64,000 bases of DNA from Eutreptiella sp. 'Long Island Sound 2002' (taxonomy: Eukaryota; Euglenozoa; Euglenophyceae; Eutreptiales; Eutreptiaceae). The stretch is taken from contig OZ038384.1 in NCBI GenBank assembly GCA_964036045.1, positions 21,629,000-21,692,999 on the forward strand. The letters run 5' to 3'. A program made the translations under genes and the position numbers. Below the pieces are notes generated by a model. It did not search any database. It saw only the letters and a list, made by a program, of their open reading frames with translations, and had not been told where the DNA came from. This document shows positions 12,946 to 64,000 of this stretch, piece by piece (the first letter of the stretch is position 1; every line of letters starts with the position of its first letter).

Positions 12946-12950
12946 ATCCT
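12946..12950. repeat. X target-site duplication (right half of split G)
   Basis: ATCCT next to the LTR tip at 12951. The partner copy is at 45768-45772. After collapsing the pair, the minus strand reads ATGGAGGAT then CTCCTG, which restores the RT context seen in element A (MMEDLL). Confidence 0.85.
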
Positions 12951-13731: not shown

Positions 13732-13742
13732 CTCCCCCCACA
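13732..13742 (-). other. X polypurine tract
   Basis: Minus-strand TGTGGGGGGAG sits directly before the LTR. It closely matches the tract ending GGGGGAG before the LTR of element F. Confidence 0.75.
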
Positions 13743-28815: not shown

Positions 28816-29321
28816 AGCCGAACCCGAAGATCTATCGTCATCGGGAGTACCAACTTCAGGGCGATCGGGCCGAGGCCATGAAGAAGCTCTTGGCCGAGTT
28901 CATTGAGCGGGGATGGATCGAACCCTCCGACAGTGAGTGGGCCAGCCCAGCCTTCATCGTGCCCAAGAAGGAGAAGGGCGAGTGGAGGTTGGTGGTTGAT
29001 TACAGGGGTTTGAAAGAGCAAACCGAGCACGACTCGTACTCGCTTCCCCTGATCGACTCCATCCTCCAAAAGCAACAGAAAAAGCGGATTTTCACGGTGT
29101 TGGACCTGAAACACGGTTATCACCAGATGCCGCTACACCCGGACTCCAGGCCCTGCACAGCGATGTCGACGCCGCTGGGGCCCATGCAGTGGAAAGTGGT
29201 GCCCATGGGCGCCAAGAATGGCAACGCCGCTTTCCAGCGCATGATGGAGGACCTACTCGGTCCTGTTCGGGACTGTGCCGACCCCTTCGTGGATGACATC
29301 ATCATCGGGTCCGGCACGTAG
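28743..29321 (+). pseudogene. pol: Element A reverse transcriptase, N-terminal and palm
   Basis: Typical Ty3 RT: EFIERGWIEPSDSEWASPAF, WRLVVDYRGLKEQ, VLDLKHGYHQMPL, then the catalytic DPFVDDIIIGSGT (VDD in place of the commoner YIDD). A UAG follows directly (29319-29321). The matching place in element G has GAG, so this is a nonsense mutation in this copy. The frame is unchanged across the stop. Confidence 0.9.
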
Positions 29322-29324
29322 AAC

Positions 29325-31772: not shown

Positions 31773-32303
31773 TGGAAGGGATTCGCCGCCTCCAGAGATT
31801 CGTGGGAACCTCCGAGCAGTTTTGTGCCGAGGTATACCATGGTCTGGATGGACTACCTAAAGAAAAAGAACATTTCCTTGGATGTCAAGGACGTGTTGGT
31901 CCACTTGGTAGCTGCTGTAGCACCGTAATGGATCCCCCTTGTTTGTTTCTGTGAATGGGGAGACAAGTGAGGGCGTTCATCCGGGGATTTTTCGGCCTTG
32001 ATCGGCCATATACCCCCTTCACTCGATCTCCACATATATATTTCATTGTGGTATACTTATTTAGGTCGACCGACGACCTTTTTCTATATTTGATCCCCTT
32101 GGTCCATGTTGTAGATCAAGAGGAGACCGGATATGGCGTAGGGCACCGATTTTCAGTGTCCTCACCCCTCCCTCGGGGCATGGGGGACGCCTACGACGTG
32201 TGTGGGGCCTCCATATGTCCATCGGACACGGAGGGGGGGGTTGGAGCCCATTGGGGTCCTCCCGTCCTCTCTTCAATGACTTCCGAGCGGTAACAACGCT
32301 CTG
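31773..32303 (+). other. Element A 3' untranslated region
   Basis: About 0.53 kb between the pol stop and the polypurine tract. Its beginning (GGTATACCA ... AAGAAAAAG) is recognisably related to the sequence after G's integrase (minus, 6673 downwards). Confidence 0.6.
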
Positions 32304-32313
32304 ACAAGGGGGG
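32304..32313 (+). other. Element A polypurine tract
   Basis: ACAAGGGGGG directly before the TG of the 3' LTR. Confidence 0.85.
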
Positions 32314-34668: not shown

Positions 34669-36772
34669 ACCACCGCCCACATTGCTGGCGTTGGTCACCA
34701 GGATAACCCCCCCCTGTGCCCTAGGCACGCCCAAGCAGTTAGCGTTGGCCACCTTGTCTTTGAGCTCGTCAAACGCTTGTTGCTCTTGTGGGCCCCAGCG
34801 CCAAGTAGTACTCTTCTTGATCAAGTCTGTCAGAATGGCGCTGGTGTAGGTGAAGTTTTTGATACGGCGGCGATAGAAGTTGCATGCCCGAATGAAACTG
34901 TGTACATCATGAAGTCCATTCTTGGGGTCTTCGTGTCGTACCTTAGCATCCATCAGGGGTTTGACCTTAGAGGCCGCTGGGGTCCACCACCCATAGCCAA
35001 CGTCAAACCCCAGGTACTGCATGGTCTCCTGCATGCACTCACACTTCTCCAGCTTGAGTCGTGTGTGGTTCTCCTGGCAGACCTCAAAGAACTCACCCAA
35101 GAGGATTAGGTGGTCCTCCTGGGTATTGGTCCCGAGGCATACATCGTCGATGTGCGCTTCCATCTGGGCCCCACGGGATATAAGCTCCTGCACCTTAGGT
35201 CTCCTTCGTAGGATTGACAAGATCTTGTTCATCAGCTCTTGGAAAAGAGTGGGTGCGTTGGCCACGCCAAATGGCATGACCTTCCACTTGAACACCCTCC
35301 CCTGAGGGGTGATGAAGGCCAGCAGCTCCTGAGCATTGGGCGTCAGGTCCACTTGCCAGAATCCGCTCCCCTTGTCCATCTTGGTCTGGTAGCGACAGGA
35401 GGCTATCTTCTCCAGGGTACACTCCATATTGGGAATGGACCCTGAGTGGTTCAGCGTTTTCTTGTTCAGCTCTCCGTAGTCCACTACCAGCCGTTTGGCT
35501 GTAGACCCAGGTTTAGCCACCAGGAAACAGGGGCTGCAGTGTAGGGGGTAGTCCTCGTCCTTGTACTCCAGGACTAGGCCAGCGTCGATACATTCTTGTA
35601 TCTGTCGCTCGATCTCGTCGGCCTGCTCTTTAGAAGCTGGATAGGGTCTCCTCCGGATCCTGTGACCCACGAACTCTGGTTTCAGCTTGAGGTCCATCTG
35701 TACCAGCTTGTCACATGAGGCTGGAGGGGGTAGTTCTCCGAACACCTCCAGATGGGTCCTTATAAGCTTCTGCAACCGCGGGTCCAATGGCTTGATCTTG
35801 TCCTCCATGTCCTTGTCAGAGTGTAAGTTGCTTGCCCCCTGAGTAATAGACGTCGGGAGGTGATCCTCCACCGACTTTACGCCCTTGGTAGTGTCCTTCA
35901 ACCCTTGGTAGGCATATAGGAGGTCTTGTTCAACCATCTCCGATGGACGATGGCAACATAGGCACGCTCGAGGGGGTTCACATACACATTCCTCCGAGAG
36001 GTCGTCCTCCTCTGGGGTCCTCACATGGGCGCCCCACACGCTCTTCATGAGCTTGAGATCTACCTCCCTTTGCCAGGTGGTGATCTTCTGTTCGAGGTCC
36101 TCCTTCAACTGAGATAGATATCCCATACGTCCTTGCTTCAGTGGCCATGAGCTGGGAGTAGGCTTAGCGTAGCATGGCTTTTTCGCCACCAACTTCCTCT
36201 TGGAGTCCACATACTCCCTTAGCCTGGATCGAGGGTCCAGCGCTTCGTCCACGGGGTCTTCCACCCTCATGGAGAGTAGGGGTTTCAGTGGGGCGACGTA
36301 CTCGGCGTTCTCCACTTCCTCAACACAGGTCTGCAAGAAGAAGGCGTCGTGCTCAGTTTCGTCATCTGAGTGGATAGAGCTAGGTAGCTCGGATAGTCCA
36401 CACTCAGAGACTCCATCAGCAACAGATACATGACAGGGAGAGTTGGGGGCGTTGGTGTCAGTCACGATGTACTCATCTCCTCCGGGTATAGTCTCAATAG
36501 CATCTTGAGGTCGTAGTTGATCCTTCAAGTCACCCAAGGCGAGTGCATCGCTTTCTCGTTGTATAGCCTGGACCAGAGTCGGGTCCAGATCCCCCCAGGG
36601 GATTCGAGGTAAGACCTCCGTCCACCACGCTGAGCATACTCCCCCATCCAGGTTTCCCAATAGGCGTCTTACGCCCCAGAGGCACGTAGATGGCCTCATC
36701 AGGTAACCGAACAGAGCTGATAGTCAGCCTGTCCAGGAGGTTTTGCCAGTACTCGTTGCCCCCATGGGCTCC
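34669..36772 (-). pseudogene. pol: Element C reverse transcriptase and proximal RNase H
   Basis: The main frame begins near 36699 on the minus strand. A long acidic, Cys-bearing N-terminal region (CVCEPPRACLCCHRP, near 35980) leads to Ty3 RT: YPASKEQADEIERQIQECID, KRLVVDYGELNKKTL, KMDKGSGFWQVDL, FKWKVMPFGVANAPTLFQEL, catalytic AHIDDVCLGTN (HIDD), connection (FIRACNFYRRRIKNF). Early RNase H ends at the element A insertion in LVTNASNVGG. The usual TDAS is TNAS here, so the first RNase H Asp is lost. The frame immediately after the protease's UAG (36775-36773) differs from the RT frame, so at least one frameshift lies near 36700. Confidence 0.87.
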
Positions 36773-37510
36773 CTAATTGGGGGGACACAGGACCATACGG
36801 GAACGTTCCAAGGCCACCTTGGTCAGGACTCTCCCCAGTTCACTGAACCTGGGGTTCCCGTAGGCCATCCCGAAAGAGGGCCAGTAAAGTTTGTAGCTGC
36901 AGTTCTTCCTCTTGCTGCAGTAAATTTCCAGTGCATGCTGTTTGTCTCTGGCGAACAACTCCAGACTCAGGTCTTCTCTAGAGTAACCCAACTCCTTCAG
37001 ACCTTGGTCTGGGACTTCCCCCAATAGTTGATAGTCCTCAGTTTTGGAGGACGCCATCATGTTCGAGGGCTCCTCCTTCGATAGCCTCAGGTAACTGGAG
37101 GTATGTTCCGACTGCTCCAGTGGCACAGACTCTCTGCCACTGCCGTGGTCCACGTACAGGAGGTAGGGCGCTTGCAGCGTCAGGGATCGTATCTGGGAGT
37201 GCTGCACGAAAACGTCAGTCCCCAATACAAAGTCGAAGGCCTCAGTGTCCATCACATAGAACCGACGGGCGATAGTCCGGGAGCCCATAGGTACCTCCAC
37301 TTCACAGTCCCCGCAGCTGTGCACCACATGTCCATCCCCCGTTCGTATAGCCGCGGTGGTCATGGTGTTCTTCAGGCTCCCACAAGGTAAAATGTTTTTG
37401 GCCACTATAGATATGGTGGCGCCAGTATCCAATACCCCCAGGTATTCGCGTCCCCCTAGTCGGATACGTACCCAAAATACCAGGTCCTGGGTGCCACGGG
37501 GGCGTCCCCG
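36773..37510 (-). pseudogene. pol: Element C protease
   Basis: Retropepsin-like aspartic protease with YLGVLDTGATISIVAKNIL, followed by MGSRTIARRFYVMDTEAFDFVLGTDVF (flap and second-half LGxD pattern). It lies in the same frame as gag, separated by UGA CGG (37513-37511) with 26 open codons before the first start-like codon. It ends at an in-frame UAG (36775-36773) after PPN, beyond which the frame stays open for some 50 codons. Confidence 0.82.
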
Positions 37511-45767: not shown

Positions 45768-47472
45768 ATCCTCCATCATGCGTTGAAAGGCAGCATTCCC
45801 ATTCTTGGCTTCCATGGGAACTACCTCTTATTGCATGAGCCCCAGCGGAGTGGACATCGCTGTGCATGGCCTGGAGTCCTCATGCAGCTTTAGGTCCAAC
45901 ACCGTGAAGATGCGCTTCTTGTGCGGCTTTTGGAGGATGGAGTCGATCACCGGTAACGAGTACGAGTCAGGTCCGGGTTGTTGCTTCAATCGCCTGTAAT
46001 CGACAACCAATCTCCATTCACCCTTCTCGTTCTTAGGAACGATGAAGGACAGGCTTGCCCACTCACTTTCGCAGGGATCAATCCAACCACGCTCAATAAA
46101 TTCCATCAAGAGCTTCTTCATCGCTTTTGCTCGTTCTCCTTGGAGTTGATATTTTCGGTGCCGATACATTTTCGGGTTTGATTTCAGCTTGATCTTGGCC
46201 GTACCAAATTTTCCGCGATCCGGAGGATTTTTGTTGGCAACTCTACTAAATAGCCGCGGAAGTGTTTCAATAAGTCTATCCTCGAGCGCGGCTACCTTTG
46301 GGTTCTCCTTTGGCTTTCTCTGCCGCTTGCCGTGGCATTGAAACTAACGAGTTCACGGCGGTGTATGCCTCTTGTGGATCCACTTCTGACATCTCCTCGT
46401 CCCATATGCCCTGTTTGTCGACGTGGGAAGCCGTAATTCGCGATAATCCTTGGATATTTCGGGCCACGGGCTCCAATTCATCGAATTTGTCACCCACCCT
46501 TGAGACACGCCATGTCAGAGGGTCGGACCCTATGGGACCATCATACTGGCCAGCCAAATGGTTCATAACTCTTGCCACGAACTCATCCTTCTCGAACCAC
46601 CCGGTCACCAACTCCCGGTCGTCCCACCAATGAGGTGACTTGGCCTGGGCTCGCTCCCTCCGAGCAGCCACTCGGTCATGCATACCCATCCGCATGTAGG
46701 CGACAACCCGGTCGATCTCAGAGTGTGGAAGTACGTCAACACTCTACGTAGGGTCACTCTTTTCTTCAAACATAACCCTCATTGGCACGGCCTCTACCCT
46801 CCTGATGACTTCATCACCAGTGGGTTGGCACTGTGGAGCATCAACCAAAAAAGCCTTGGTACTCCATGCTTGTCCCAGGGCGGGCATTGGTTTACCCTTG
46901 GCGTCGATGAACAACTGCTGCGCAGGTCCAAATTGCATCTCGTTCAGGGTGATGGAGACCGAGATTGGTTTAAGATCCTCCAACGGACATGGGCTGGATC
47001 CTATGCCCGTCACAACCAGGATACCGATTGCTCTATCCGCAATCATCTTGTCCACTGTACGTCTGGTGTCTTCTTGAGCACCCCGCAGGTACATGGGCCC
47101 CCACTCCTTCAATCCCCAAATGCGTTGACCACGCAGAGTCCCCCTTGTGCCAATGCCTCGTACAATTACTTAGCTGCGGGGCATCCCAGGAAGCAAATAC
47201 ATCCGTTTGGGTTTTTTAGCCTCCAAGTTGTTGAACCATGCAATTGTACAATTGTGGTGGCATGCCATATTCCATGAGATGACCTCCGCAGTCCCCATTT
47301 AGCTTGGTACTCACGGTCTTGACCGCCCGCACGATTCTTTCCTCCTCATCTCCGGTCCACTGAGATAATCCTCGGGCATGGTCCGAAGATAGCCAAGTAA
47401 GACGCTCCTTGTCCTGTCGAACCAGCGTTGCACGGTGAGGAATTGTAACGGCAGCAGTGACAGCACTCAATT
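45768..47472 (-). pseudogene. pol: Element G pol, 5' part: methyltransferase-like domain, linker, RT palm
   Basis: Related to element A pol and complementary to the 3' part at 10919-12945. On the minus strand: 47470-47216 (HRATLVRQD ... GGHLMEYGMPPQLYN), 47112-46744 (MKEWGPMYLRGAQEDTRRTV, VLVVTGIGSSPCPLEDL), 46695-46276 (MRMGMHDRVAARRERAQ), and 46169-45828, the RT palm (EFIERGWIDPCESEWASL, WRLVVDYRRLKQQ, RIFTVLDLKL). It stops at the X insertion just after QRMMED. The methyltransferase-like domain has lost its NPPF motif, as in A. Frame changes between the four segments, plus a short loss in the RT (the YHQMP stretch is missing), show it is dead. Upstream it is cut by element E. Confidence 0.85.
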
Positions 47473-50911: not shown

Positions 50912-51955
50912 GGAAGCCAACTTGACCCGGTTCCCAACACAGGGGTTGAGTGGCAGGAGACAAAACCCATCAGGGTAGTTGCGGCGGTGGATGGACGCTG
51001 CTGGGACCGGCTGGCGCGCTCCTCCGTCCTCCTGTACCCTGCCTGGGTCCTCAGCGCTGCCCGGCGAGGCAAGCAGCGCCAGTTTGTCTGCTGGATCCAG
51101 GTCAGAACGACAGATGGTAAAGTTAAACTTGCCAGATGTCTGATTGACAATGGTTCAGAAGTCAATCTGGTGAGAAAAGGCTTTCTGCAGGAGGATGAGG
51201 CGGAGATGTCCCCGACACCTGTCCAGGTGGAGGGAGTCAGCGGACATCGCCTTGACGGTGGCGACAGAGAAGCAAAATTGGCAGTCAGATTGGTGAAACA
51301 ATCTGTGTGGAGCGTGGAGGAGACGGTCACCGAGGAGTGGTTTGCTGGAAACCTCTATGAGGCCAGCATAAAGTATGATTTATTCTTGGGTCAACCTTGG
51401 CTTCACGCTCACCGTGTGTCGCCCACGGGACACAGGACATGCTTCCTCCAGGATCCGTCGACCAGCAACCCGTCTGACCTGTATTATCTGCACCCATATA
51501 CCAAGAGTATCCACCAATTCAAGGAGAGAAATAAGCTGCATTTTCAGCAAGATGGGCAGGAATGGACACGGAATCAAGAAGAATTCGAGGAAGGAAAGGT
51601 GGAATCATTCAACTGCAAGAAGTGGAAGTCAGTTTGCTATCGTGTGGTCGACAAATGGCGGGACATTCTGGTGGATTCTTTCGAAAGGAACCACAATTTT
51701 CGTCCTCAGGTTGATGCCTTTGCAAACAAGAAGAATAAAAGATTTCCGAAGTTCTACCACGATGCCTGGAGTGAGGACTGGTCTGAACCTTTGTGGATCA
51801 ATCCCCCTTTCGACGTTTTTCCTCGTGTGGTGCAGAAGCTGAAGCAATCCGGCGCAAAGGCGATTTTAATTGTCCCCAAATGGCCAAGACAAAAGTGGTT
51901 CAAGGACATTATGGACATTTCAATCGACATTGTCGAGCTACCTCACAAGGGAGTG
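50912..51955 (+). pseudogene. pol: Element E pol: protease and Dam-methyltransferase-like domain, split by F
   Basis: In frame with gag after UAG GGA AGC. Protease-like: FVCWIQVRTTDGKVKLARCL then IDNGSEVNLVRKGF (D-N-G where D-S/T-G is expected) and YDLFLGQPWLHAHRV. Domain at about 51,630-51,955: YRVVDKWRDILVDSF, RPQVDAFANKKNKRF, WSEPLWINPPFDVF, KAILIVPKWPRQKWF, IDIVELPHKGV. This is the D-x-F-A...N-K-R...NPPF...ILVVP-x-W...WF pattern of Dam-type adenine methyltransferases, with the catalytic NPPF present. Element F lands right after HKGV. The frame resumes at 62977. Confidence 0.75.
51951..51955. repeat. Element F target-site duplication, left
   Basis: GAGTG, repeated at 62972-62976 beyond the other LTR. 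Collapsing the pair restores E's reading frame (GTG then AAG CCG). Confidence 0.92.
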
Positions 51956-52489
51956 TGAAAGTGCTGCCCTAGGTCGTGGATGGTGCCGGAGGGCTCAGGG
52001 CCGGCAAGACCGGGGGGGCATGCACGCGAGGAGTCGACCTGAACGCTGCTGTTGGGGGCAGAACCGGATACACGGACACCAACGGAGGCAAGAGCGGCGA
52101 CAACGGAGGCAAGATCCATGCTGATTGTTATCCGGCAAAAAATCCCAGTCTATCAAGAAAATTGATGTGGATATTCCTAAGTACATCCGAGTGTCCATAT
52201 CTATCTGAAAAGATTTATAAAAATCCGATTGTGAAAAAATATTTGGCCGATCTGGCTCGCGCACGCGCGTCAGCGGCAAATGGCGATTCCGGGTAAATGA
52301 TCGGAACGCGGCGGATTTACGATGAATGGACCGCGGAATCAGATCCGGCACATCAGAAATATATAGGTCTGATCCTGAGACTGAGCTGCGGGGCGGCGAT
52401 TCCGCCGAAGCAGAGAAAATGACCAAAATATAGCCAATCTGGGGCAGATCTGCGAAAATCTGAGCAGATGGGGGTTAGCCGCACTTACA
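51956..52489 (-). repeat. Element F 3' LTR
   Basis: 534 bp, TGTAAGTGCGG ... CAGCACTTTCA on the minus strand. It differs from the 5' LTR by scattered substitutions with no length change. Confidence 0.93.
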
Positions 52490-52502
52490 CTCCCCCTCCA
52501 AA
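52490..52502 (-). other. Element F polypurine tract
   Basis: Minus-strand TTTGGAGGGGGAG directly before the LTR's TG. Confidence 0.85.
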
Positions 52503-54384
52503 AACACACTGGGGTGTGTCCCTACCTCAACGAAGAACGTAGTGCGGGTAAGTCCCAGAAAAAAAAATAGAAATGTAGCCTCGATGGGGCGAAGTCTGCT
52601 TGATCTGACCTGATTTGGGTTGAATTGGCACTGAATCAGGATGGATGAACCTGAAATGAGACAGAATGAGGAGTGACGAACAGTCCTCCGGGCAGTAAAA
52701 CATTAGGTTAAGGGCTAAAAAGCATGCAAACGTATCGAGAAACGATACCAAACCATGCCCTGGTTGAGAATGAGGTAGATTATTGGTGGATTGAGTGGGA
52801 GAATCAAGAAATGGAGTGACATCTCGGCGCTCTGGCACAGTTTAGCTGTCGCGGGCACGCTACGGTGTCCTTCACGTACTCTACATCGTGTTACTCCCGC
52901 TTTTCTCGTTCTGAAAAGTACAGCATGTGCCTCAGATTTGGCGCATCTGGTGGATGTTCACAAGATTCAGCAAGATTGAGAATCAATTTGAGCAGAGATG
53001 AAGGAGATGAAACAGTCACAGAGAGGGAAAACAAATACAAATGTAGTCTGCAGGCCCTAAGTGAACAGAAAAACATCAGCGTCAACGAAGTTAGGCAAAG
53101 CTGTAAACAGATCTTCGAGGAATGAGAGGAGATGTCAAGGAAATCAACCTAAACTGTCCTAAAATGAGGGAATTTGCTCATTTTCCTAAGATGAAGGTGA
53201 AATGAAGCGGAATGTCTAGAACTGAAACTACTAACACCTTCGTTTAGACTAGAGTTAATATATATTGTCGTTTATTCAGCTGAATTGTGCTTTCCGGCAC
53301 GTTGGTTCGCGAGCATCCAACAGATTCCATGAAAATGTGGATCATGTGATGATGCATCATGATGGGACATGATAGCCCTGGATCCTTGGCATGTACCGCG
53401 CCGAAGGTTCGCTGAAGGCGCTTTACTGACAGTATATAACTGAGAGACACCGAATAGTCCTTTATTTACAGTGGCGGCGGTGTCAATCGACTTGGACAAG
53501 GCCCATCTTTCGATTGAGTCCCACAAGACACTTGGATTCACCATTTTCGACAGTTTCAGGTCGGATTGAGCTCACATTGGCGTGTGCCAAAAATACACCG
53601 AAGCTTACGGAAGCTCTGAGGTCCGAGAGGTTGCTGTTAGAAGTCCCTAGAGCTCCTATATGAAGGTTGTCTGAACAATTGACGTCGGGGCTTTGCTGCA
53701 CTGTTGCGCAGAATGATGGATAAACATGAGGAATTCAAGGTAAATTCAAGGAATCTGGATCTGAATCTGGACTTTGGCTTTAGCATCACGGCAAATGAAG
53801 GTAAGATCTGAGTTCCTGGCGTCGCATCTAGTTCAGCCAGTACTACAGGGGGTGCCTGTAGGGGTGAATGTCGCTGTGTGCTGTGTGTGTGAATGTCGCT
53901 GGCCAGCGTTTTTACTATGTACAATTGCTTCCATCTGCACGAGTAGCCAAATTTCAAAGATGCACAGACCAACAGAGACAAGATTACCCCGGATCTGCCT
54001 GAATTAAGCCTGAGTTTGGTTTTTTCTGGACACGGCAGCACACACCGTGGCTTTCGGCAGCGTATCTACGCCTTGTCTGCCGAACGGAGACCAAAGAAAA
54101 GTTTATTGACGTCAAATTATCAAACATTCGCAGTTCTCCACATCATGTCGTAATCAGGAAGAATGAACAGTGGATTGAGCAGAATGTGGTTTTTTCAAGT
54201 CGTCAGAACACTCACATTGGAATAAGTGGTCGACGGGGCGAGGCTGGAGCTTTTGTAGGAGTTGGACATGCAAGGGTTTTGAACCTACACCCTTGAGCCC
54301 TAGCGACGAGTGCCATGACGCCCTGGACTAGACGACTGTTACCCAGATTATGGCGTCGGCGACTCAAGTCACGACGGGTCTCCC
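52503..54384 (-). other. Element F 3' untranslated region
   Basis: About 1.9 kb between the pol stop and the polypurine tract. Open frames are up to about 134 codons without motifs. A tRNA-like stretch lies at 54261-54343. Confidence 0.5.
54261..54343 (-). repeat. tRNA-like sequence in F 3' region
   Basis: The minus strand shows CGTCTAGTCCAGGGCG (A-box-like), a possible long variable arm, and a B-box-like GTAGGTTCAAAACCC. The acceptor ends (GGTAACA and TGTCCAAC) pair only partly. Class-II (Ser/Leu) in shape but degenerate. Confidence 0.35.
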
Positions 54385-55557
54385 TCAATTCGGCCAAGCA
54401 CGAATACATGTGACCACCAACCTGTCTGGTGGGGCCCTCGTACGGCTTGGGCGCTGCAAATCAGCGGCCGAACTCGAAGCTTGGTCCTCATTTGGCTCCT
54501 GGGCTGGCCTGACCGCAGGAGGGGAGATCGACGGATCAGCCCTGGAAGGTGGCTGCTGAGGGCCGTAAAAGGCTGGATCTCGATTCACCACAGGTCTTTT
54601 TCCGTCGCTCTCCACCTGTCTGTCGGGTTTCGACAGACAGTCTGTCAGGAGTACGCCAATTTCGGGGTGCTTCTTGAGGAAGTCGATGAACCCCTTGGTG
54701 TACCCATGGACAAAAGAATGGGCTGGTTCCCAGTTGTTGTGACTGGAATCAAAGCCCCTCCACTCACATAGAAATTCCCATTCGCCCTTTTCGTCACGTC
54801 TTGCCTCTAAAATCCTCTTGAGTTCGTACTTCCCCCCTTCGATGACCCGATCGGACAAAAATTTTGAAGTCCAAAAAAGGGGTTTAACCCGATCCTTGGG
54901 GGAGGGGATCTCTCTCTTGAGGCGATCGCCCGAAACTTCAATTTCCCTGCTGACATCCACACGAATCCTCCACCTGTTCTCACCTAGACGCGCTGTAACA
55001 GCGAATGGCCCCTCCCACAAGGGAAGAAGCTTATCATCTCCGTCCAGGGTGGTTTCGGATTTTCGAAGCCAAACTCGATCATCGACTTCAAAATTGTGGG
55101 GGTTTTTTCGGCCTTGATTCTGGACCCAAAGCCAGTCAGCTTGATGCTTATCGATTATTTTCGAGACAGTTTTTTCTGCTCGTTGGATTTCGTCCAAAAA
55201 CAACGAAGCATCTTTACAAGGGCGAGGATTATTCAACGGCATGTTCCACCAACACTTCTTTCGTCCAAAGACAATTTCATTTGGAGAAAGGCCATGGTAC
55301 AATGGCGTGTTGTGGTAACGGCGAAGCAATGCGAAGAGAACTTCAAGCCAATGGAAGTCTTTCTCACTGGCGAGCTCCTTACGAAGCATATTTATAATAG
55401 AGCGGCCGGCTCTTTCGCCAGGCAGCGCTCGATGTGAGTGGATTTCACATCTTAGGTGGTGGATTCCAAGGCGAGCACATAATTCCTTCCACCATTCGGA
55501 GGTGTACTCTTTGCCTGAGTCCGTAACCACCTCGGATGGGACGTCCCAACCTCCCAT
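54385..55557 (-). CDS. pol: Element F integrase core, tail and chromodomain
   Basis: 390 codons in frame with the upstream pol, past a single UGA (55560-55558, ACC UGA ATG). DDE core: EVVTDSGKEYTSEWWKEL gives the second Asp; the Glu lies in the RALPGERAGRSIINMLRKEL region; the first Asp is in the upstream frame. SH3-like tail (NFEVDDRVWLRKSETTLDGD). Chromodomain near residues 245-300: YELKRILEARRDEKGEWEFL, CEWRGFDSSHNNWEPAHSFV. The Pro/Ser-rich C-terminus has no motif. Chromodomains of this kind direct integration to histone-marked chromatin in other Ty3 elements. The ATG at 55557 is probably not a real start: the UGA most simply replaced a sense codon. Confidence 0.85.
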   Translation of the reverse strand: MGGWDVPSEVVTDSGKEYTSEWWKELCARLGIHHLRCEIHSHRALPGERAGRSIINMLRKELASEKDFHWLEVLFALLRRYHNTPLYHGLSPNEIVFGRKKCWWNMPLNNPRPCKDASLFLDEIQRAEKTVSKIIDKHQADWLWVQNQGRKNPHNFEVDDRVWLRKSETTLDGDDKLLPLWEGPFAVTARLGENRWRIRVDVSREIEVSGDRLKREIPSPKDRVKPLFWTSKFLSDRVIEGGKYELKRILEARRDEKGEWEFLCEWRGFDSSHNNWEPAHSFVHGYTKGFIDFLKKHPEIGVLLTDCLSKPDRQVESDGKRPVVNRDPAFYGPQQPPSRADPSISPPAVRPAQEPNEDQASSSAADLQRPSRTRAPPDRLVVTCIRAWPN

Positions 55558-58500
55558 TCAGGTCTGCGCGCACCATTTGGCGGCAGCTTTGCCAGTCATT
55601 GACTCGACGTTGCAAGGCAACACCTGAATGTAGCCAGAATGACGGCATTGTATAAGGAGCACTCCATTGATCTTTTTGTTGGTCCAATGGCACTCTTCGT
55701 CGTCGAGTTCACCAAGATGGAAAAAATCACTGGTGACTCTGTTAAAGAGGCGCTCCGGAATAGGGTGTGGCCTCAGATGGCCGTGCTTCTTCGCGCTGGG
55801 GGGCGTCGAGACAGCACATTGGGCACATCCGGCGGCTACTTTCATACAATGTGTATATAGCCTTGAGCCGAACAACCTATGTTTAATCATCGACCATAAT
55901 CTACGGCCATGTGCGTGGGGGGACTCCCATTTGTGCCACCAGTTTAACACTCGGGGGGCCAGGGCGTCTGGTACGCACAATTTACCCTCCATCCACAGCT
56001 TCCCCCCATCCAACGAATATTCAGAATAAATTCCATACTTGTGACCATCTTTGGATTTGAGATTCTCAAAGACCTCTTTAAACATCGAATCATGCAGATA
56101 ATCGTTCGTCCAGTCACGGATGATAAGGGAACCTTTCGGCAGGGGTGGAGTTTTGGCCGGATCTCGACGCTTAATGCCCTGAATCAACCGAAATCCACTT
56201 ACAGGTCGGGTATACTCGAACCGTTTCACACTCCCTGAGGAGGGATCGGTGACTTTCTCCACGACTTTCAGTGATTTGGTGATAATCTCATGGGCATGCG
56301 CCGGATCTGAGAAGGCCGTGATGTCATGACACGGTAATGCATGCCGTTTAACAGAGCATTGCATGCATTCACGTCGAATGAGCTTTTTTTCTTCCTGATC
56401 CCACTCGATTACGACGTGGCGGTCCTGCTCCGTACCATGGATGTTGGTACTTTGCAGCCCCTCTGAAGCGGGGTAAGCCCATCGGCTCAGAGCATCCGCT
56501 ACCGTGTTGTGTTTTCCAGGCAAATACGACACATGGAGGTCAAACAAACTGAGAAATTCATGCCATCTGGCCCGTCGACCAGCTGGGCTCGCGACAGTAT
56601 CAATGTGTTCGGTGGCCCAATACTCCAGAGATCGATGATCCGTCAGGACCTCGACTCGATTGGTGCCAACCCACGATTGGTACTTCTTCAGAGCGCAGAT
56701 TATGGCATAAGTCTCCTGCTCACGCGGTGACCTCTGCATCTGGCGTGGAGCTAGCTTCCGAGACAAAAATGCAAGAGGGTAATGATCACCTGTGGCTTCA
56801 TCAACCTGTTCAAGGACAGCTCCAATCGCGTACCTAGAAGCGTCGGTTCTTATGTAGAAGGGTCGGTCGAATTTCGGCACATGCAACGTGGCGACTTCGC
56901 AGAGGGCCGCCTTCAAGTGATGGAAGGCCTCCTCGCACTCGTCAGTCCACTTGACACGAACCTTTGAACCTGCCTTGCCCGCATCTCTCCCTACCTTCAA
57001 TAGTTCAGTGAGGGGGGCAGCAAATTTGGCATAATTCGGCACAAAAGTGTGGTAAAAATTGCAACAACCCAGGAATCCTCTCAATTCCGTGATCGTCTCA
57101 GGGCGCTTCCACTTCTGAATAGCGACGAGCTTCCCTGGACTGGGTCGTCGGGTGCCATTCTCAAGGAGAGAGCCACAAAATTCGACTGATTTTAAAAATA
57201 ATTTCCCCTTCTTTGGCCCACAAATCAGCTGATTGGCATCAAGAATGTCCAAAACCTGGTTCAGCTGCTTTTCATGTAGGGCCACCAGCTCGGCTTGGGT
57301 CAGTCCCTCCCCCTCTGTCGCGATGATTATGTCATCTATGTACACACTCACGAAGGCACGAAGCTCAGGATGAGCTGTAAAAAGCACATCCTCCATCATT
57401 CTTTGAAAAAACGAAGGGGCGTTCTTCAGGCCCATGGGCATGACCGTCCACTGGACTGGGCCACATGGCGTGCACATACAGGTGAGAGGTCGGCTGTCCT
57501 TCCTCAACGGCATTTGGTGAAAGCCGTGACGGAGATCCAGCACAGAAAACAAACGACCTCTTGCCCTCTTGGCGATTTCCTCCTCAATGAGGGGCAGGGG
57601 GTGTGAATCCGCCTTGGTTTCGGCGTTGAGGTTGCGAAAATCAACAACCATTCGCCAACCATCAATAGTGTTCTGGTCTGCAGGCGGCGGCTTCGGGACT
57701 GTGAAGGGTGCACAGCACCACTCGCTGGTCATACAACCCTCAAGCCCACCAAATTCCCTGAGATTTCTCTCGATTATTTTTCTGAGTATCTCATGTTTCT
57801 GTCCATGGTTCTCATAAGGACGCTGTTTCTTCGCCTTGTACCCTTCACGAAGCTCGATGAAGGCTTCACCGAACTGCCCACGGACAGGGGGGTTCTTGAT
57901 CAACTTCCCCGAAAGGGTTGTGTCCTTCCGTTCCTCAAAAATCTTGTCTCTTTTCTTGGAACACAACTCAGTGTCCACCTGATCGCCAGGAATTACTGTC
58001 GAAAAAACTTTGGCGATTTCTTCGGCCTTGGCAGGAAGAATCTTCTTACGGATGTCCCTAAAAAGGTCCGTATCAACTGCCTCCTGAAGATAGGTGGGTC
58101 GAGTGTCGACATTCCAGAGATTCTCTTCGTGATCCAGCTCCTCGAAAGGATCTATGAAGGCTTCCACACGGGGTTTTTCATAAAAAACTCTGAATTTGCG
58201 GCGCGAAGAAAATTTTTTTGTCGTCCGTGCGCCGTAGATTCTTTTGGATGTAGATCGTATTGGGGAAGAGGGAGACGAGGCGGATCGATTTGACGTTGGA
58301 TCACCTTGGGCATCTGACGGACAAAAATCAGAAAAAATAGATTCATCATCAGTACCACGCTCAACCTCAGATTCAGACCCAACACAGGAATCAGTACTAG
58401 AATCAGCAAAATCAGAGTCAGAAAGCTTTCCATCCACCAGGAATGCAAGCGAACTCCAGGGCCGCTGTGGCAGGGGACCTGTGTGGTCCCTGGCATACAG

Positions 58501-59568
58501 CTTAATCTTCCTGGGAAGTTCGATGTAATCTACACAAATGTCTTGCAATTCCTGAAACCAAGGCTTGTCGTCCCACAAGGGCACAACTAAAATCGCCTGG
58601 GTTTTATCTTGCTTGATTTTGTGGATGACCTGCTGGATTAAGTGAAACGGAGGATTAATCCATAACTTCTTGTCCCATTTATGGGTCCAAGCGTCGCGAA
58701 AGTGCTTGTCAAAGCGCTTGTTCTCGCGATTAGCAAAGGCATCACACTGTGGCCAAAAGGAATGGTGTTCATAAAAATATTCACAAATTGTATCGCGCCA
58801 TTTGTCGACAACTCTGTAGGATGAAGAGTGCCAGCGCCAAGGGCGTCGTGGCTGGGTGTCCCTACGAAGACATTCTAACTCTCGGGAGTAATCGGCACTC
58901 CCATTCACCTCTGCAATGGTGACATCTTCGCCAAACTTCGGTGTAACCTTTTGCTTCAAAAATTCTTCTGCACTTTTAAACCCTGCGTGCAAAAAACGAA
59001 ATTCAGGACGCTTCAAGGGACCTGACTCCAGCAAAAAACAACGCCGATGACCTACGGGCCCCACCCTGTTCTTGCGCAGCCAAGGATGGCCCAAGTAAAG
59101 GTCATACTTTATGTCGGCACGATATAAGTAGTCATCCTTAAGGATAACTTCCTCCACATTGCCATCTTCCCAAAGGTCCTGAGCGACCAAATGAGTTGAT
59201 ATATAACAACCGCGTTGCCCACCTGCGAGAGAATGTCCAGAAACTCCCTCGAGGGTAACAGGATGAGGCGAATCAAACACGCAGTCGTCAGGCAAAAAGG
59301 AATTGGATTGGAGATTTACCTCCGATCCATTGTCACACAAACAAGTGGCGAGGTGGAAATTGCCCTTGCAATCAGAGACCCACAGCTTTGTGACAAACTG
59401 ACGGGCCCTGTGCTTGGACTGTACACCAACCTCGTCCACTACAACAGAGGGATCCGCTGCCGGATCCAGGGGAGAGGAGACAAGCGACCCTACATCAAAT
59501 AGTGGTCGAGAAGGAATCTGGGGATCATGCCTGAAATCGCCTGGGGAGAGGCGATTTTCGTGGCTCCC
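55558..59568 (-). CDS. pol: Element F pol: protease, Dam-MTase-like domain, RT, RNase H, integrase zinc module
   Basis: 1293 codons from 59439, open back to the gag UAG. Protease-like 10-130 with CLCDNGSEVNL (D-N-G) and YDLYLGHPWL. Dam-methyltransferase-like 205-315: YRVVDKWRDTICEYF, QCDAFANRENKRFDKHF, KLWINPPFHLIQQV, QAILVVPLWDDKPWF. Acidic spacer 335-400. RT 545-720 with WRMVVDFRNLNAET, VLDLRHGFHQMPL and YIDD at 700-703. RNase H 855-985 (RTDASRYAIG, TDHRSLEYW, HNTVADALSR). Integrase HHCC module near 1190-1235 (HKWESPHAHG ... CAQCAV). It ends GKAAAKWCAQT at a UGA. All RT and RNase H catalytic residues are intact. Confidence 0.9.
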   Translation of the reverse strand, partial: GSHENRLSPGDFRHDPQIPSRPLFDVGSLVSSPLDPAADPSVVVDEVGVQSKHRARQFVTKLWVSDCKGNFHLATCLCDNGSEVNLQSNSFLPDDCVFDSPHPVTLEGVSGHSLAGGQRGCYISTHLVAQDLWEDGNVEEVILKDDYLYRADIKYDLYLGHPWLRKNRVGPVGHRRCFLLESGPLKRPEFRFLHAGFKSAEEFLKQKVTPKFGEDVTIAEVNGSADYSRELECLRRDTQPRRPWRWHSSSYRVVDKWRDTICEYFYEHHSFWPQCDAFANRENKRFDKHFRDAWTHKWDKKLWINPPFHLIQQVIHKIKQDKTQAILVVPLWDDKPWFQELQDICVDYIELPRKIKLYARDHTGPLPQRPWSSLAFLVDGKLSDSDFADSSTDSCVGSESEVERGTDDESIFSDFCPSDAQGDPTSNRSASSPSSPIRSTSKRIYGARTTKKFSSRRKFRVFYEKPRVEAFIDPFEELDHEENLWNVDTRPTYLQEAVDTDLFRDIRKKILPAKAEEIAKVFSTVIPGDQVDTELCSKKRDKIFEERKDTTLSGKLIKNPPVRGQFGEAFIELREGYKAKKQRPYENHGQKHEILRKIIERNLREFGGLEGCMTSEWCCAPFTVPKPPPADQNTIDGWRMVVDFRNLNAETKADSHPLPLIEEEIAKRARGRLFSVLDLRHGFHQMPLRKDSRPLTCMCTPCGPVQWTVMPMGLKNAPSFFQRMMEDVLFTAHPELRAFVSVYIDDIIIATEGEGLTQAELVALHEKQLNQVLDILDANQLICGPKKGKLFLKSVEFCGSLLENGTRRPSPGKLVAIQKWKRPETITELRGFLGCCNFYHTFVPNYAKFAAPLTELLKVGRDAGKAGSKVRVKWTDECEEAFHHLKAALCEVATLHVPKFDRPFYIRTDASRYAIGAVLEQVDEATGDHYPLAFLSRKLAPRQMQRSPREQETYAIICALKKYQSWVGTNRVEVLTDHRSLEYWATEHIDTVASPAGRRARWHEFLSLFDLHVSYLPGKHNTVADALSRWAYPASEGLQSTNIHGTEQDRHVVIEWDQEEKKLIRRECMQCSVKRHALPCHDITAFSDPAHAHEIITKSLKVVEKVTDPSSGSVKRFEYTRPVSGFRLIQGIKRRDPAKTPPLPKGSLIIRDWTNDYLHDSMFKEVFENLKSKDGHKYGIYSEYSLDGGKLWMEGKLCVPDALAPRVLNWWHKWESPHAHGRRLWSMIKHRLFGSRLYTHCMKVAAGCAQCAVSTPPSAKKHGHLRPHPIPERLFNRVTSDFFHLGELDDEECHWTNKKINGVLLIQCRHSGYIQVLPCNVESMTGKAAAKWCAQT

Positions 59569-61389
59569 CTAGGCGTTCTGATCTCCAGTGGCTGCGTTAA
59601 CATTATGGACACACCCTGATTCGTCGACCCACTCATCTTGGAGCGGATCATCTGCTGGATTCAAGGCATTCAATTCATAATCTCGGTCCGCATCGGACAC
59701 CTGATCTGCACCTGAGACCTGATCCACACGATGGTTGCCCTTTCCACGTCCACGGCCACGGCCGCCGGATGATGGACCTCCACCTTCGCCACGCCCTCTG
59801 CCCTTACCAGAGGAAGGGGTTCCCGAAGGATTTCCCTTACCTTTACCCTGGAATCCTAGAGCATTTCCCTTGTTTGCACCGGATTGAGGGGTTTGGCCTG
59901 GATTTCGATTTCCGCCTCCAGCGTTGGTATTGGGATTTTTCTGGCCGTTTGGCTGCCCACCGGAGCCGGATGGAGTCGGATTTCCTGTGCCTTGGGACCC
60001 GCCAGGGCCTCCAGGATTTTTGTTTCCACCGGAGGGGGTCGGATTCCCTTTTCCAGCCTTCCCACCGTGCACCTGTCTGTCATTCCTGTCTGAATTCTGC
60101 GAATTACTGATATTTTCACCAATCACCTTGTGATCGTAAGGAGACCATCGGTGATTATCAGTAGAATGCATCTTAGCTCGGTTCGTAGAACCTAAAAGAA
60201 GGCAGATGCTACAGTGCTGCTGAACATTCTGGGTGTCATTCACCTTTTTGTTGCCTTCTTGGGCCCCATTTTGGGTGTTTTGCTGGGTATTCTTGTTTCC
60301 CCCAAGACCCTCATGGAAATTCTGGTTGGCGGCGTCGGCGACCCGCTCAACCTCCTCCCAGAGTTCCTTCGGGGTGTACGAAAACACCCAGTTTTTGGCC
60401 CTCAGGCGTTGGCCATGGAAGCTGACTCCCCTGTTGAGGACTTGGACAAACAAGTCCCGATCCTCGTGTTCATGAAACTTGATTTTCCACGTCTCCTCAG
60501 TGAACTTCACCTTGGAGAAGGACGTGGGGGAGCACTTTTGAAGTGCCTCCCTGACGGAAAACTTGTTGGCAGAGGCATCGAAGCCTTCCACGTCCGCCCA
60601 CCAGGTCTTGACCTTTTCTTCGGATTGTTTGTTCCGAAGGGTGGCGGCAGTTTCTGAGGGGATTTTGTCAAAAATCAGACTTTTCAGCTCGGCACTAGAA
60701 AGTTTTTCGCCTGAATGTTCAGCTTCTTCCACTAAATTCCAGAAGCGCTGTTTTTTGTCTTGCACTTCGTGCAAGATTAATCGCGAGAATGAAGGAAAAT
60801 TCTTCAACATTTGGTGGTAGTGGTCCTCTGGCAGTCGGGATCCACGTACCTCGAACTGTTCCCACACCTCATCAAAGGTAAGGGGGGAACTTGTATCCTC
60901 GCGATCACTCCAAGTCCTGAGCCAAGTGTTGGCCGGCGCTCCCTCAAGGCAATCCAAGAGGGCCATCAGGAACTGATCATCTTGGAGTTTTTGAGTCTTA
61001 ACCCACAGTTTAAATTCCCGTTGGAACTGAGGCCAACGTCGGGGGTTCCCATTATACTTCGGTTGCTTGGCAACCTGACGAAGTTGCAAGGAAGTAGGGT
61101 TCAGAAGCGAATCCAGCCCAACACCGGCCGTAATGGCAGACACCTTGGCGGCATCATTCGCCACACCAGCTCCGGCGAGGGTCTGGGCGAGCAACAGCTG
61201 GGCTAAGGTATTGGAATCAGCAGCAGGAGGGGCAGTACGGGAGGCAGTTCGCTTGGCATTTGGAGCCTCAGTCCTAGCCTTCGCCGTCCTACTCTCAGAA
61301 GGAGAGATTTTAACCCTTTCCTTTAGCTTGGTCCTGCTGATCCTTGCATCGGTGGTCCTGGAGTCCACCGAAGGAGCAATTGAAAAAAT
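59569..61389 (-). CDS. gag: Element F gag, capsid and nucleocapsid
   Basis: About 600 codons. Ala/Thr-rich start, capsid-like helices (LLNPTSLQLRQVAKQPKYNG, GSRLPEDHYHQMLKNF) aligning with element E's gag, zinc motif CSICLLLGSTNRAKMHSTDNH (CX2CX11HX4H, the same spacing as E), and a Gly/Asn/Pro/Lys-rich RNA-binding tail (GRGRGKGNHRVDQ). It ends NA-UAG-GGG AGC, and the same frame continues into protease, so pol expression by readthrough is likely. It is in frame with the N-terminal gag segment past a UAA. Confidence 0.85.
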   Translation of the reverse strand: MFSIAPSVDSRTTDARISRTKLKERVKISPSESRTAKARTEAPNAKRTASRTAPPAADSNTLAQLLLAQTLAGAGVANDAAKVSAITAGVGLDSLLNPTSLQLRQVAKQPKYNGNPRRWPQFQREFKLWVKTQKLQDDQFLMALLDCLEGAPANTWLRTWSDREDTSSPLTFDEVWEQFEVRGSRLPEDHYHQMLKNFPSFSRLILHEVQDKKQRFWNLVEEAEHSGEKLSSAELKSLIFDKIPSETAATLRNKQSEEKVKTWWADVEGFDASANKFSVREALQKCSPTSFSKVKFTEETWKIKFHEHEDRDLFVQVLNRGVSFHGQRLRAKNWVFSYTPKELWEEVERVADAANQNFHEGLGGNKNTQQNTQNGAQEGNKKVNDTQNVQQHCSICLLLGSTNRAKMHSTDNHRWSPYDHKVIGENISNSQNSDRNDRQVHGGKAGKGNPTPSGGNKNPGGPGGSQGTGNPTPSGSGGQPNGQKNPNTNAGGGNRNPGQTPQSGANKGNALGFQGKGKGNPSGTPSSGKGRGRGEGGGPSSGGRGRGRGKGNHRVDQVSGADQVSDADRDYELNALNPADDPLQDEWVDESGCVHNVNAATGDQNA

Positions 61390-62601
61390 TTATGTCGCCT
61401 CCTCCGATGGCTCTGTTGCTTGTCCCACCGATGAGGCGCCCTCAGACCGCATGTGCGTCTTGAAAAGATTTTTTATTCCCAGCGTTTGAATGATGAGGTG
61501 CATTTGATCTTTGAGCAATTGGAGCTCAGTATCTCGCTGGAATCTGCAGGAGCAGTCGGCAGGACAGTACATGCCGTGTCCTGAAGGGCCTGAGCAGGCT
61601 GTCGGACCGCTGATCTCGGTGGTCCGCAGCCAGGAGTCCACTTGGGGAGCTCCTTCAGCCCTGATTTCGAGGCTTGCCTGCCTGGCCGCCTCTAAAATTC
61701 CCTCCTCAACCGCGGCGGCTAGATCGTCGCGAATGGAAACAGGGGGATGAGGGGCGGAGGGCCCGGGAACAGGTGCCCGGACTCTCTCCTTCGGGAAGGG
61801 GCTTGCCTCCCAGATCTGCAAAAAAATGGCAAAAGAGTCATCTTCTTGAGAACGCCACCACATCCTGGTATTAATTTCGTTCTGAAGGAGGAAAAAATAT
61901 TCCGTTAAAAAATCAGAGGCGATTCTTTCTTGTTCGATCAGCTTAGACGAGGCTAAGTAACAAAGGGCCTCAAGGGCCTCAAGGTTACGGGTCACTTCTG
62001 GAGACAAATGGTTGTCCCAGTGTGCCCAAGAGGCTGGTCGATTATAGCTAGGTACCTCACCTGGACCGCCCATCTCAATGTCGTTCAGATCGGCGTCTAT
62101 GGTCTCAAATGTTGGACATCCGTAAGGAATGTTGGTACCTGTCAGCTCCGTAAGCTCCACTGGAGCATTGCCATCGTCGTAGGCCGGCGGATTCCAGCTG
62201 CTCGATGGCCAGTTTCGACTGGGATGATGGTAATCTGGGTCCCCACAGCTGCTGATGTGCGCCCTTCTTGGGCAGCTTGGACTTGCGCAAGGCATTCCTC
62301 TCAAGGCCTGGTTCGCACAGCACCAAGGCAGTGTAATCGTTACTTCTCCAGAAGCGGCGGGGTCTACGGGGCCGTACCGGGGAGCGGGCTGTGGATGGGA
62401 TGCCACTGAAGCAACATTCAGGTAGCCTCTGCTACCATGAAAGTGCTGCCCTAGGTCGTGGATGGTGCCGGAGGGCTCAGGGCCGGCAAGACCGGGGGGG
62501 CAGGCACGCGAGGAGTCGACCTGAACGCTGCTGTTGGGGGCAGAACCGGATACACGGACACCAACGGAGGCAAGAGCGGCGACAACGGAGGCAAGATGCA
62601 T
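61390..62601 (-). CDS. gag: Element F gag, N-terminal segment
   Basis: 403 codons from an ATG inside the 5' LTR. The primer-binding site is read as HGSRG near residue 53. It contains Cys-rich patches (WCCANQALRGMPCASPSCP; CPADCSCRFQRD) and, after the second, a short coiled coil (TELQLLKDQMHLIIQTLG), the same order as in element E. It ends at UAA (61392-61390). E has no stop here, so the UAA is probably a mutation that detaches this part from capsid. Confidence 0.75.
   Translation of the reverse strand: MHLASVVAALASVGVRVSGSAPNSSVQVDSSRACPPGLAGPEPSGTIHDLGQHFHGSRGYLNVASVASHPQPAPRYGPVDPAASGEVTITLPWCCANQALRGMPCASPSCPRRAHISSCGDPDYHHPSRNWPSSSWNPPAYDDGNAPVELTELTGTNIPYGCPTFETIDADLNDIEMGGPGEVPSYNRPASWAHWDNHLSPEVTRNLEALEALCYLASSKLIEQERIASDFLTEYFFLLQNEINTRMWWRSQEDDSFAIFLQIWEASPFPKERVRAPVPGPSAPHPPVSIRDDLAAAVEEGILEAARQASLEIRAEGAPQVDSWLRTTEISGPTACSGPSGHGMYCPADCSCRFQRDTELQLLKDQMHLIIQTLGIKNLFKTHMRSEGASSVGQATEPSEEAT
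62426..62437 (-). other. Element F primer-binding site
   Basis: Minus-strand TGGTAGCAGAGG abuts the LTR's CA end and is complementary to an initiator-Met tRNA 3' end. Confidence 0.9.
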
Positions 62602-62971
62602 GCTGATTGTTATCCGGCAAAAACTCCCAGTCTATGAAGAAAATTGATGTGGATATTCCTAAGTACATCTGGATGTCAATATCTATCTGAAAACATTTAT
62701 AAAAATCCGATTGTGAAAAAATATTTGGCCGATCTGGCTCGCGCACGCGCGTCAGCGGCAAATGGCGATTCCGGGTAAATGATCGGAACGCGGCGGATTT
62801 ACGATGAATGGACCGCGGAATCAGATCCGGCACATCAGAAATATATAGGTCTGATCCTGAGACTGAGCTGCGGGGCGGCGATTCCGCCGAAGCAGATAAA
62901 ATGACCAAAATTTAGCCAATCTGGGACAGATCTGCAAAAATCTGAGCACATGGGGGTTAGCCGCACTTACA
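62438..62971 (-). repeat. Element F 5' LTR
   Basis: 534 bp. It carries the gag ATG at 62601-62599 (also present in the other LTR). Followed on the plus strand by GAGTG (62972-62976). Confidence 0.93.
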
Positions 62972-62976
62972 GAGTG

Positions 62977-64000
62977 AAGCCGTATTGTGAAGACAATGGC
63001 AAGCCCTTGCCACAGCGTTCGTGGAGCACGTCGGCGTGCTTAGTTGACGGGAATCTGGGAGATTATTGGCAAGATGACAGTGAAATGGGAACAGAAGAGG
63101 TCATTTCAAATTCCTCGGAAATCGACGAAATTGAGGTGGATGAAGACGATCGAGAGCGGAATCCCGACGTATCGTCGCGGAAGGAGGGAGAGGCAATCGG
63201 CGTCCCTCAAGAGAACGCCTCCATCCATTACAATTCGTCCCCATCAGACAAGAATTAAGCCAACAAATGTCAAGATTTCAAGCAAGAATGATGACAAATC
63301 TCGAAGAATCTCGCCTGAATTGACAGGAATGAAGCTGAATTCGTCCGACCATCCCTTCAAGACATCCGTGGACCCCTTTGATTGGTGGGATCCCACGGAG
63401 GAGCGAGCTCAGGTGAGCTTCATCCACCAACAATGCGACGAAGAAGTTTGGAATGAAGTGGCCAAGAACATGAGACCACGACCAACAATTCGCAAATTGG
63501 TGGACATAATGTCGGTGATTAAATGTGGGAATCAGGTCGACGGAGACAAGATATCTCCAAGAAGGGACGCAGTGTTCGAGGATTATCAAGATGACGTGCT
63601 GAGTGGGAGGTTGTGGAAAAACCCCCCAATTCGATGTGAAAATGGGGAAGCCAGGATTGACATAATCGAAGGCTCAAAGGTGCACAAACAACGTCCATTC
63701 TATCTACACGGCACCATAGCAGATGCCCTGCGAAAGATTATTGAGCGCAATCTCTATGAGTTCGGTTGGTTGGAGGGCTGCATGAGTTCTGAGTGGTGTT
63801 CAGCACCATTTACTGTGCCAAAACCCCCACCTGCTGACCTATCCAGCATAGATGCTTGGCGTCTAGTGGTGGATTACAGAGCCCTGAATGCCGCCACAGT
63901 ACCAGACGCGCATCCTCTTCCTTTAATCGAGAAGGAGATCGCCGCGAGAGCCAAAGGCAAGCTCTTTACTGTGTTGGATTTGCGCCATGGCTTTCATCAG
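62977..64000 (+). pseudogene. pol: Element E pol, continuation: spacer and RT (runs off the window)
   Basis: Continues from 51955 in frame: KPYCEDNGKPLPQRSW matches F's region after the methyltransferase-like domain. After an acidic spacer the first frame stops at 63258. A frame change near 63240 leads to a frame open to the window end: DPFDWWDPTEER, then RT (IIERNLYEFGWLEGCMSSEW, WRLVVDYRALNAATV, FTVLDLRHGFHQ). The YIDD motif lies outside the window. Homologous to F RT residues 430-641. E is lightly damaged (two frameshifts in what is visible). Confidence 0.87.

Follow-up and report, generated by a model that had tools for sequence, protein, structure and literature searches.

A Dam-type methyltransferase-like domain between protease and reverse transcriptase in Ty3/Gypsy elements of Eutreptiella

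We analyzed a 64,000-nucleotide stretch, hereafter the window, of the 2.28 Gb genome of the euglenophyte Eutreptiella sp. 'Long Island Sound 2002' (assembly GCA_964036045.1, contig OZ038384.1, G000:C7:21629000-21692999). The window has a GC content of 52% and its content is nested Ty3 elements. Two of them, named E (plus strand) and F (minus strand), carry within Pol, between protease and reverse transcriptase (RT), a block whose sequence similarity and predicted structure support its assignment as a Dam-type (PF05869-like) methyltransferase (MT) domain. It is probable that E and F belong to a chromodomain-containing Ty3/Gypsy clade whose Pol bears a Dam-type adenine-N6 methyltransferase that would be made in the particle and methylate the element's own nucleic acid, and that the domain has become a pseudo-enzyme in two further elements of the window, G and H.

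Results

Extent and motifs of the domain in E and F

The original prediction, which was made from the sequence of the window, described a block of about 110 residues with a fixed motif order shared by E and F. Re-translation placed the motifs at the claimed positions, and the two blocks share 50.9% identity across 110 residues (tblastn E = 6e-37). The location was correct, but the domain is longer than proposed, reaching a W-x-x-x-A-F-L-V-D-G motif that aligns with the C-terminal stretch of phage Dam proteins. In F, it occupies pol residues 240-389 (58402..58851, minus strand); alignment assigns DAFANREN (58720..58743) to the D-x-x-A-x-x-x-N motif of five phage Dam proteins, the putative S-adenosylmethionine (SAM) side, and NPPF (58645..58656) to catalytic motif IV. 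In E, the N-terminal part (51590..51955, plus strand) contains DAFANKKN (51713..51736) and NPPF (51800..51811) at the aligned positions and is interrupted by F, and the C-terminal end follows the F insertion at 62974..63063 (match 62971-63063). Motif IV of Dam-type N6-adenine methyltransferases has the form (D/N/S)PP(Y/F/W), with which E and F agree and G and H do not.

The place of the domain in a Ty3 Pol was also described properly. A DNGSEV aspartic-protease motif lies upstream (residue 79 in both frames, by eye), and RT (PF00078) lies downstream at F pol residues 625-799; Pfam listed no protease match in F or E at E-values up to 1. The F pol frame (55558..59568, minus strand) extends through the protease motif, MT, RT and RNase H and beyond, and the complete order in Pol is protease motif, MT, RT, RNase H, integrase and chromodomain. 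One in-frame stop splits the integrase, the remainder of which is encoded together with the chromodomain at 54385..55557 (minus strand), and a second splits gag into two open reading frames (59569..62631, minus strand). RVT_1, RNase H and Chromo (29.6 bits, cut-off 25.1) score over their Pfam cut-offs and rve scores under (23.8 vs 32.6 bits); PF00665 is annotated in the close relatives P0003 and P0004. The long terminal repeats (LTRs) of F are 534 bp long and 97.4% identical (5' LTR, 62438..62971; 3' LTR, 51956..52489; F on the minus strand), and F is flanked by a 5-bp target duplication, GAGTG, found next to the 5' LTR. Thus, F fits a Ty3/Gypsy (chromovirus) LTR retrotransposon in domain order, direct LTRs and short target duplication, the protease being recognized by its motif alone. 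The insertion point of F lies inside E's own copy of the MT domain, which breaks off at 51955, and the same protein resumes past the second F LTR, from 62972. The E pol frame up to the insertion (50912..51958, plus strand) contains the protease motif and MT, and the E RT (63368..64000, plus strand) runs off the window (RVT_1 22.8 bits for this piece).

Homology with phage Dam proteins and predicted fold

The proposed Dam-type homology was borne out by several profile comparisons. PHROG_111 (DNA methyltransferase) matches E at 7.3e-8 and the F block at 0.0015. An hhalign comparison of 16 Ty3 blocks (15 used) with five phage Dam proteins gave a probability of 98%, a score of 86.8 over 129 columns and an E-value of 2.5e-13 (for one comparison); E and F together scored 57.5, F alone 49.0 and E alone 42.1. 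As controls, a reversed profile reached 13.2, none of 40 column-shuffled profiles exceeded 19.1, and RT and RNase H profiles gave 10.7 and 15.1, respectively; chance resemblance was rejected on these grounds. In addition, a hidden Markov model (HMM) built from the Ty3 block recovered all five phage Dam proteins with E-values of 9e-7 to 1e-12 (249 sequences searched).

The AlphaFold model of the domain has a predicted local distance difference test score (pLDDT) of 83, and its best Foldseek matches are phage N6-adenine methyltransferases. Among solved structures, PCIF1 is the best fold match, some entries of which contain S-adenosylhomocysteine (SAH) and capped RNA. The predicted fold is that of a SAM methyltransferase, and the original prediction, which would have been abandoned had profile search or structure prediction placed the block in another fold, withstood both analyses.

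One relative, P0143, has an integrase-like stretch (by eye) followed by the domain with NPPY. It scores 39.2 bits against PF05869, over the curated cut-off of 28.1 bits, versus 18.6 bits (1.5e-3) against PCIF1 (PF12237), below the cut-off of 31.1; PF12237 was not listed by Pfam for F or E. A tblastn search of 50,697 phage records with P0143 gave weak matches in 446, and each of the 20 matches listed (E 0.007 to 4) falls on a feature annotated as a methyltransferase or methylase. A search of IMG/VR with the F block and P0143 found no relatives.

Relatives in the same genome

Searching the genome with PF05869 yielded 93 matches (150 scored of 3813 candidates), all over the cut-off and the best at 45.6 bits; only E. 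coli was positive among 14 control genomes. Seventeen of the 93 places were inspected (L006-L013 and L044-L052), and they represent three Ty3 families, namely E's own (L044), J and K, the last with NPPF (L049, L051). Within L044-L052, the domain is present in all nine places and RT lies behind it in eight, L048 being truncated. Dam scores over the cut-off were obtained for L044 (28.9 bits), K (36.4 and 37.5) and J (32.1 and 39.2). All five frames given to Pfam, which had been preselected from the Dam-search matches, passed the Dam cut-off with RVT_1 downstream in frame. Families that retain the active-site motif and families that lack it coexist in this genome, in many copies.

E belongs to an abundant family. 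Its block has 14369 first-look candidates, of which 150 were scored (93-100% identical, eight with one stop), and its RT has 31073, also with 150 scored; these counts are lower bounds, and first-look candidates may take in related families. Dozens of the 150 listed E-family RT matches have open frames of one and the same length, 1658 residues, a pattern suggestive of a recent burst in a single lineage.

Selection and census of motif IV

Selection was examined on the MT domain of 20 copies taken from the 150 picked by RT similarity. All 20 are distinct at the DNA level, with proportions of synonymous and nonsynonymous differences (pS and pN) of 0.093 and 0.019, respectively, and a dN/dS ratio of 0.19 (bootstrap 0.136-0.266). 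One copy contains a stop, NPPF is kept in 18 and D-x-x-A-x-x-x-N in all 20. The domain is under purifying selection in the E family; as copies share ancestry within active lineages, dN/dS describes the family and not single copies. An earlier value of 0.106, from 29 copies picked by MT similarity, was biased by the selection of copies and was replaced by the RT-picked set. In those 29 copies, dN/dS was 0.295 for RT, 0.19 for the protease region, 0.285 for the linker between protease and domain, and 0.71 for the linker between domain and RT. Between E and F, synonymous sites of the domain are saturated, and pN is 0.33 in the domain vs 0.45 in the protease region plus linker. Comparison of G with G2, which is dead, gave dN/dS values of 0.13 (pS 0.71, near saturation) and 0.26 for the two halves.

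A census of motif IV in 143 aligned rows (142 proteins), many of them fragmentary, so that it is not a frequency of living elements, found NPPF in 43, NPPY in six (the five phage proteins and P0143), HPPF in three and NPPW in one; 15 rows have rare forms, four are not covered and the others are of the G type considered below. NPPF also occurs in P0196 and P0176, as in the K family.

Distribution across Ty3 elements

We listed 240 relatives (120 of 284, including five from the first search, and 120 of 317) and detected the domain, at E-values up to 0.01, in 133 of them (142 matches minus four from the window and five phage proteins). Its place in Pol varies. It lies ahead of the protease motif in P0176 and behind the integrase in P0143 and P0020. 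In P0022, P0053 and P0090, RNase H is separated from integrase by a weaker version (hhalign probability 87% to phage Dam and 97% to the Ty3 block). In P0053, the Dam-type domain is followed by a weak match to a PHD finger (E 0.09).

Cytosine-C5-methylase-like domains likewise occur at varied Pol places in Ty3 elements, together with the Dam-type domain in P0015, P0022, P0053 and P0090. In P0015, a piece resembling cytosine methylases (PF00145, 18.3 bits, under the cut-off of 22) precedes the Dam-type domain, which is followed by the protease motif and RT. A cytosine-methylase-like end scores 17.3 to 18.6 bits in P0022, P0053 and P0090, under the cut-off; P0018 has a C5 methylase after RNase H at 36.2 bits and is the only one of the five proteins given to Pfam that passes, and in P0016 a cytosine-methylase motif is recognized by eye ahead of the protease.

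In an RT tree of 121 sequences (FastTree), in which E's family is represented by P0009 and P0010 and E's own RT piece is absent, F, P0009, P0010, P0014, P0015-P0018 and G form a clade with support of 1.0, within which F and P0014 group at 0.965. P0020 and P0022/P0053/P0090 fall outside this F/G clade, and the placement of H is weak (0.61). Several members of the F/G clade, namely P0007, P0008, P0011, P0012, P0013, P0016, P0017 and P0018, yielded no such domain. Front ends were inspected for the last three: P0017 begins just before RT, and those of P0016 and P0018 contain no Dam-type block. In a domain tree (136 columns) with the five phage Dam proteins as outgroups, the Ty3 versions group together with 98% ultrafast bootstrap support; since outgroups are few and no DIRS sequence is included, a single capture is not demonstrated. 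The simplest reading would be that the F/G clade gained the domain long ago, that G lost the motif, that P0016 and P0018 lost or replaced the domain, and that further gains or moves took place in other elements.

Other elements of the window

The original prediction overlooked the divergent versions of the domain in G, H and a dead G-type fragment, as well as the nesting of F in E's domain. An Rfam search and a search for a dinoflagellate spliced leader, with up to five mismatches allowed, both gave no match. G (21474..34669, plus strand) has 2356-bp LTRs (21474-23829 and 32314-34669; 98.1% identical) and an MT-like domain in the interval between protease motif and RT (27661..28191, plus strand), in which HGSL replaces NPPF and which is probably a pseudo-enzyme. 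H, whose frames span 34618 to 39327 on the minus strand, carries a divergent MT-like domain; its N-terminal part (about 36776..37081, minus strand) has GNPRF, and the frame is broken behind it. Integrase-like remains beyond the left LTR of G (19861-20928, minus strand) and an H RT frame (34618-36723) that stops at the right LTR give the appearance of G having inserted in H. A frameshifted fragment of a dead G-type MT and RT is located at 45769..47335 (minus strand), and remains of G-type elements are contained in a 4.2 kb tandem duplication (5717-9937 and 9941-14156, 97.2% identical).

E, F and G each have a UAG between Gag and Pol in one shared frame (50909-50911, plus strand; 59569-59571, minus strand; and 26852-26854, plus strand, respectively), followed by GGAAGC, GGGAGC and AGGAGC. 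The junction was matched in 25 of 30 E-family loci scanned, with TAG GGAAGC in 23, CAG GGAAGC in one and TAG in another context in one. Stop-codon readthrough, which is used by gammaretroviruses, is the likely explanation.

Discussion

A predicted self-methylating retrotransposon

In the mechanism that we favor, the domain would be produced as part of Gag-Pol within the virus-like particle, where protease would cut it out or leave it next to RT; its position, and the loose constraint on the linker that joins it to RT, make it probable that the domain is released or stays fused to RT in the particle. Its target would be N6 of adenines in the nucleic acid of the element itself; the most likely substrate would be nascent cDNA or a cDNA/RNA hybrid, with genomic RNA as a possible alternative, and the new copy would enter the nucleus already marked. 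Small phage Dam enzymes lack, to our knowledge, a large recognition domain, which would suit methylation of any nucleic acid enclosed in a particle, whose contents would be RNA, hybrid and cDNA. In G and H, the domain may be retained as a pseudo-enzyme for another role, e.g., nucleic-acid binding. The original prediction of an unusually placed adenine methyltransferase, or a derivative of one, is correct, with 'derivative' more apt for G and H, in which NPPF is gone.

Several observations weigh against this reading. F scores 17.6 bits against PF05869 (E-value 0.0032), under the cut-off, and Pfam lists no methyltransferase match for E and nothing for the G frame. G alone has no match to phage Dam by hhalign (score 12.1), so its link rests on iterated profile and fold. 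A sequence search of the PDB found no credible chain, the best being a rat protease (E 0.026), and the nearest solved fold, PCIF1, is an RNA enzyme. Motif IV is changed in two of the 20 RT-picked E copies (NPPI and SPPF), members of the J family mostly have NAPF instead of NPPF, and 71 of the 143 census rows belong to the G type, in which the motif has been lost and HGSL, HGAQ or a similar variant stands in its place. The persistence of the G type without the motif indicates that catalysis is dispensable in some lineages.

Regarding its origin, the domain might have reached Ty3 elements through recombination with a DIRS retrotransposon and not from a phage-like source, a possibility to be taken seriously that we nevertheless doubt. 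DIRS retrotransposons have a Dam domain (PF05869) after RNase H, according to the available portions of PMC3266345 and PMC3783388, and in P0022, P0053, P0090 and P0020 the Ty3 domain also stands after RNase H or integrase. However, none of the 17 inspected Dam places, out of the 93 reported in this genome, is DIRS-like.

The main rival concerning function is an RNA substrate, because PCIF1 is the nearest solved fold: the domain would be a PCIF1-like methyltransferase that modifies adenosines of the element's RNA, at the cap or internally. The SAH- and capped RNA-containing PCIF1 entries and the weak PF12237 match of P0143 point in this direction. Moreover, an orchid Ty3/Gypsy lineage encodes an AlkB N6-methyladenosine (m6A) RNA demethylase (PMC9289625, in the text accessible), so methylation of RNA may be of importance to elements of this kind. 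In sequence, the domain is nevertheless closer to phage DNA enzymes, as the two P0143 scores illustrate, and we consider the RNA alternative somewhat unlikely. It is unlikely, too, that the domain is a pseudo-enzyme throughout, with the Dam-type fold serving as a nucleic-acid-binding module or structural spacer between protease and RT. The G and H forms could be read in this way, but the E family keeps NPPF in most RT-picked copies under a low dN/dS, and the K family, P0196 and P0176 have NPPF and P0143 has NPPY. Finally, chance resemblance or another fold is extremely improbable, as the Pfam results for E and F are outweighed by PHROG_111, the hhalign controls, the Ty3-block HMM, the predicted fold and the same-genome relatives over the cut-off.

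Returning to the methyltransferase reading, these data suggest that elements with an intact, selected motif may chemically mark their own genetic material. Adenine methylation has been associated with permissive chromatin across eukaryotes (PMC12695648, in the sections available), and this association would give the element a motive. We tentatively propose, as an idea with the odds against it, a self-made epigenetic passport: an abundant Ty3 clade would put N6-methyladenine on its cDNA in the particle, so that insertions would arrive with an active-chromatin mark that a host maintenance methylase could copy. If so, Dam domains at other Pol places and cytosine-methylase-like domains would belong to a wider Ty3 habit of self-methylation.

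Comparison with known systems

The literature searched, much of it available in part and with most subscription papers and Repbase outside the search, describes no Ty3/Gypsy Pol that carries a Dam-type domain, whether between protease and RT or at another place. One sentence in the accessible text of PMC6338049 is ambiguous on this point; we take it as not reporting a Ty3/Gypsy Dam, because the preceding sentence gives DAM to DIRS and DCM to both.

Phage Dam proteins share with the Ty3 domain a colinear series of D-x-x-A-x-x-x-N, W-x-NPP(Y/F), (L/V)-x-P, W and an end strand. They differ in having NPPY in the five proteins compared, where E and F have NPPF, and in a GR-x-x-F motif not seen in the Ty3 domain, which is fused in Pol ahead of RT and is 16% identical to phage Dam in the profile alignment. 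PCIF1 is a cap-specific adenosine-N6 methyltransferase with crystallized chains of 467-494 residues and 14% identity to the Ty3 domain.

Captured DNA methyltransferases are described in the available part of PMC5890265 for SymbioLINE-Dnmt, SymbioDIRS-Dnmt3 and KnitGypsy-Dnmt3, one of these retrotransposons being a Gypsy element, with Ka/Ks below 0.2 for KnitGypsy; these enzymes are cytosine-C5 methyltransferases, termed structurally unrelated to Dam-like ones. The orchid lineage resembles E and F in having an adenine-methylation accessory domain and differs in that, as far as the accessible text of PMC9289625 goes, its enzyme strips methyl groups from RNA and is encoded in an additional reading frame. 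A Sola transposon has a ParB-methyltransferase protein (PMC12477816, accessible text).

DIRS elements resemble E and F in having a Dam domain in a retrotransposon polyprotein. These domains have been known since the early 2000s (2001 and 2004 papers cited in PMC6338049, as available), and their function was called unknown in the accessible text of a 2011 review (PMC3266345). Compared by description, DIRS elements encode a tyrosine recombinase, lack protease and DDE integrase and have Dam after RNase H, whereas F has a protease motif, a DDE integrase, a chromodomain and direct LTRs with a 5-bp target duplication, and its domain precedes RT. F is not a DIRS element. A selected Dam domain in the class with LTRs, DDE integrase and chromodomain suggests that the need for it is apparently independent of the DIRS mode of integration, and points to a step common to DIRS and Ty3, such as reverse transcription or the early life of the cDNA.

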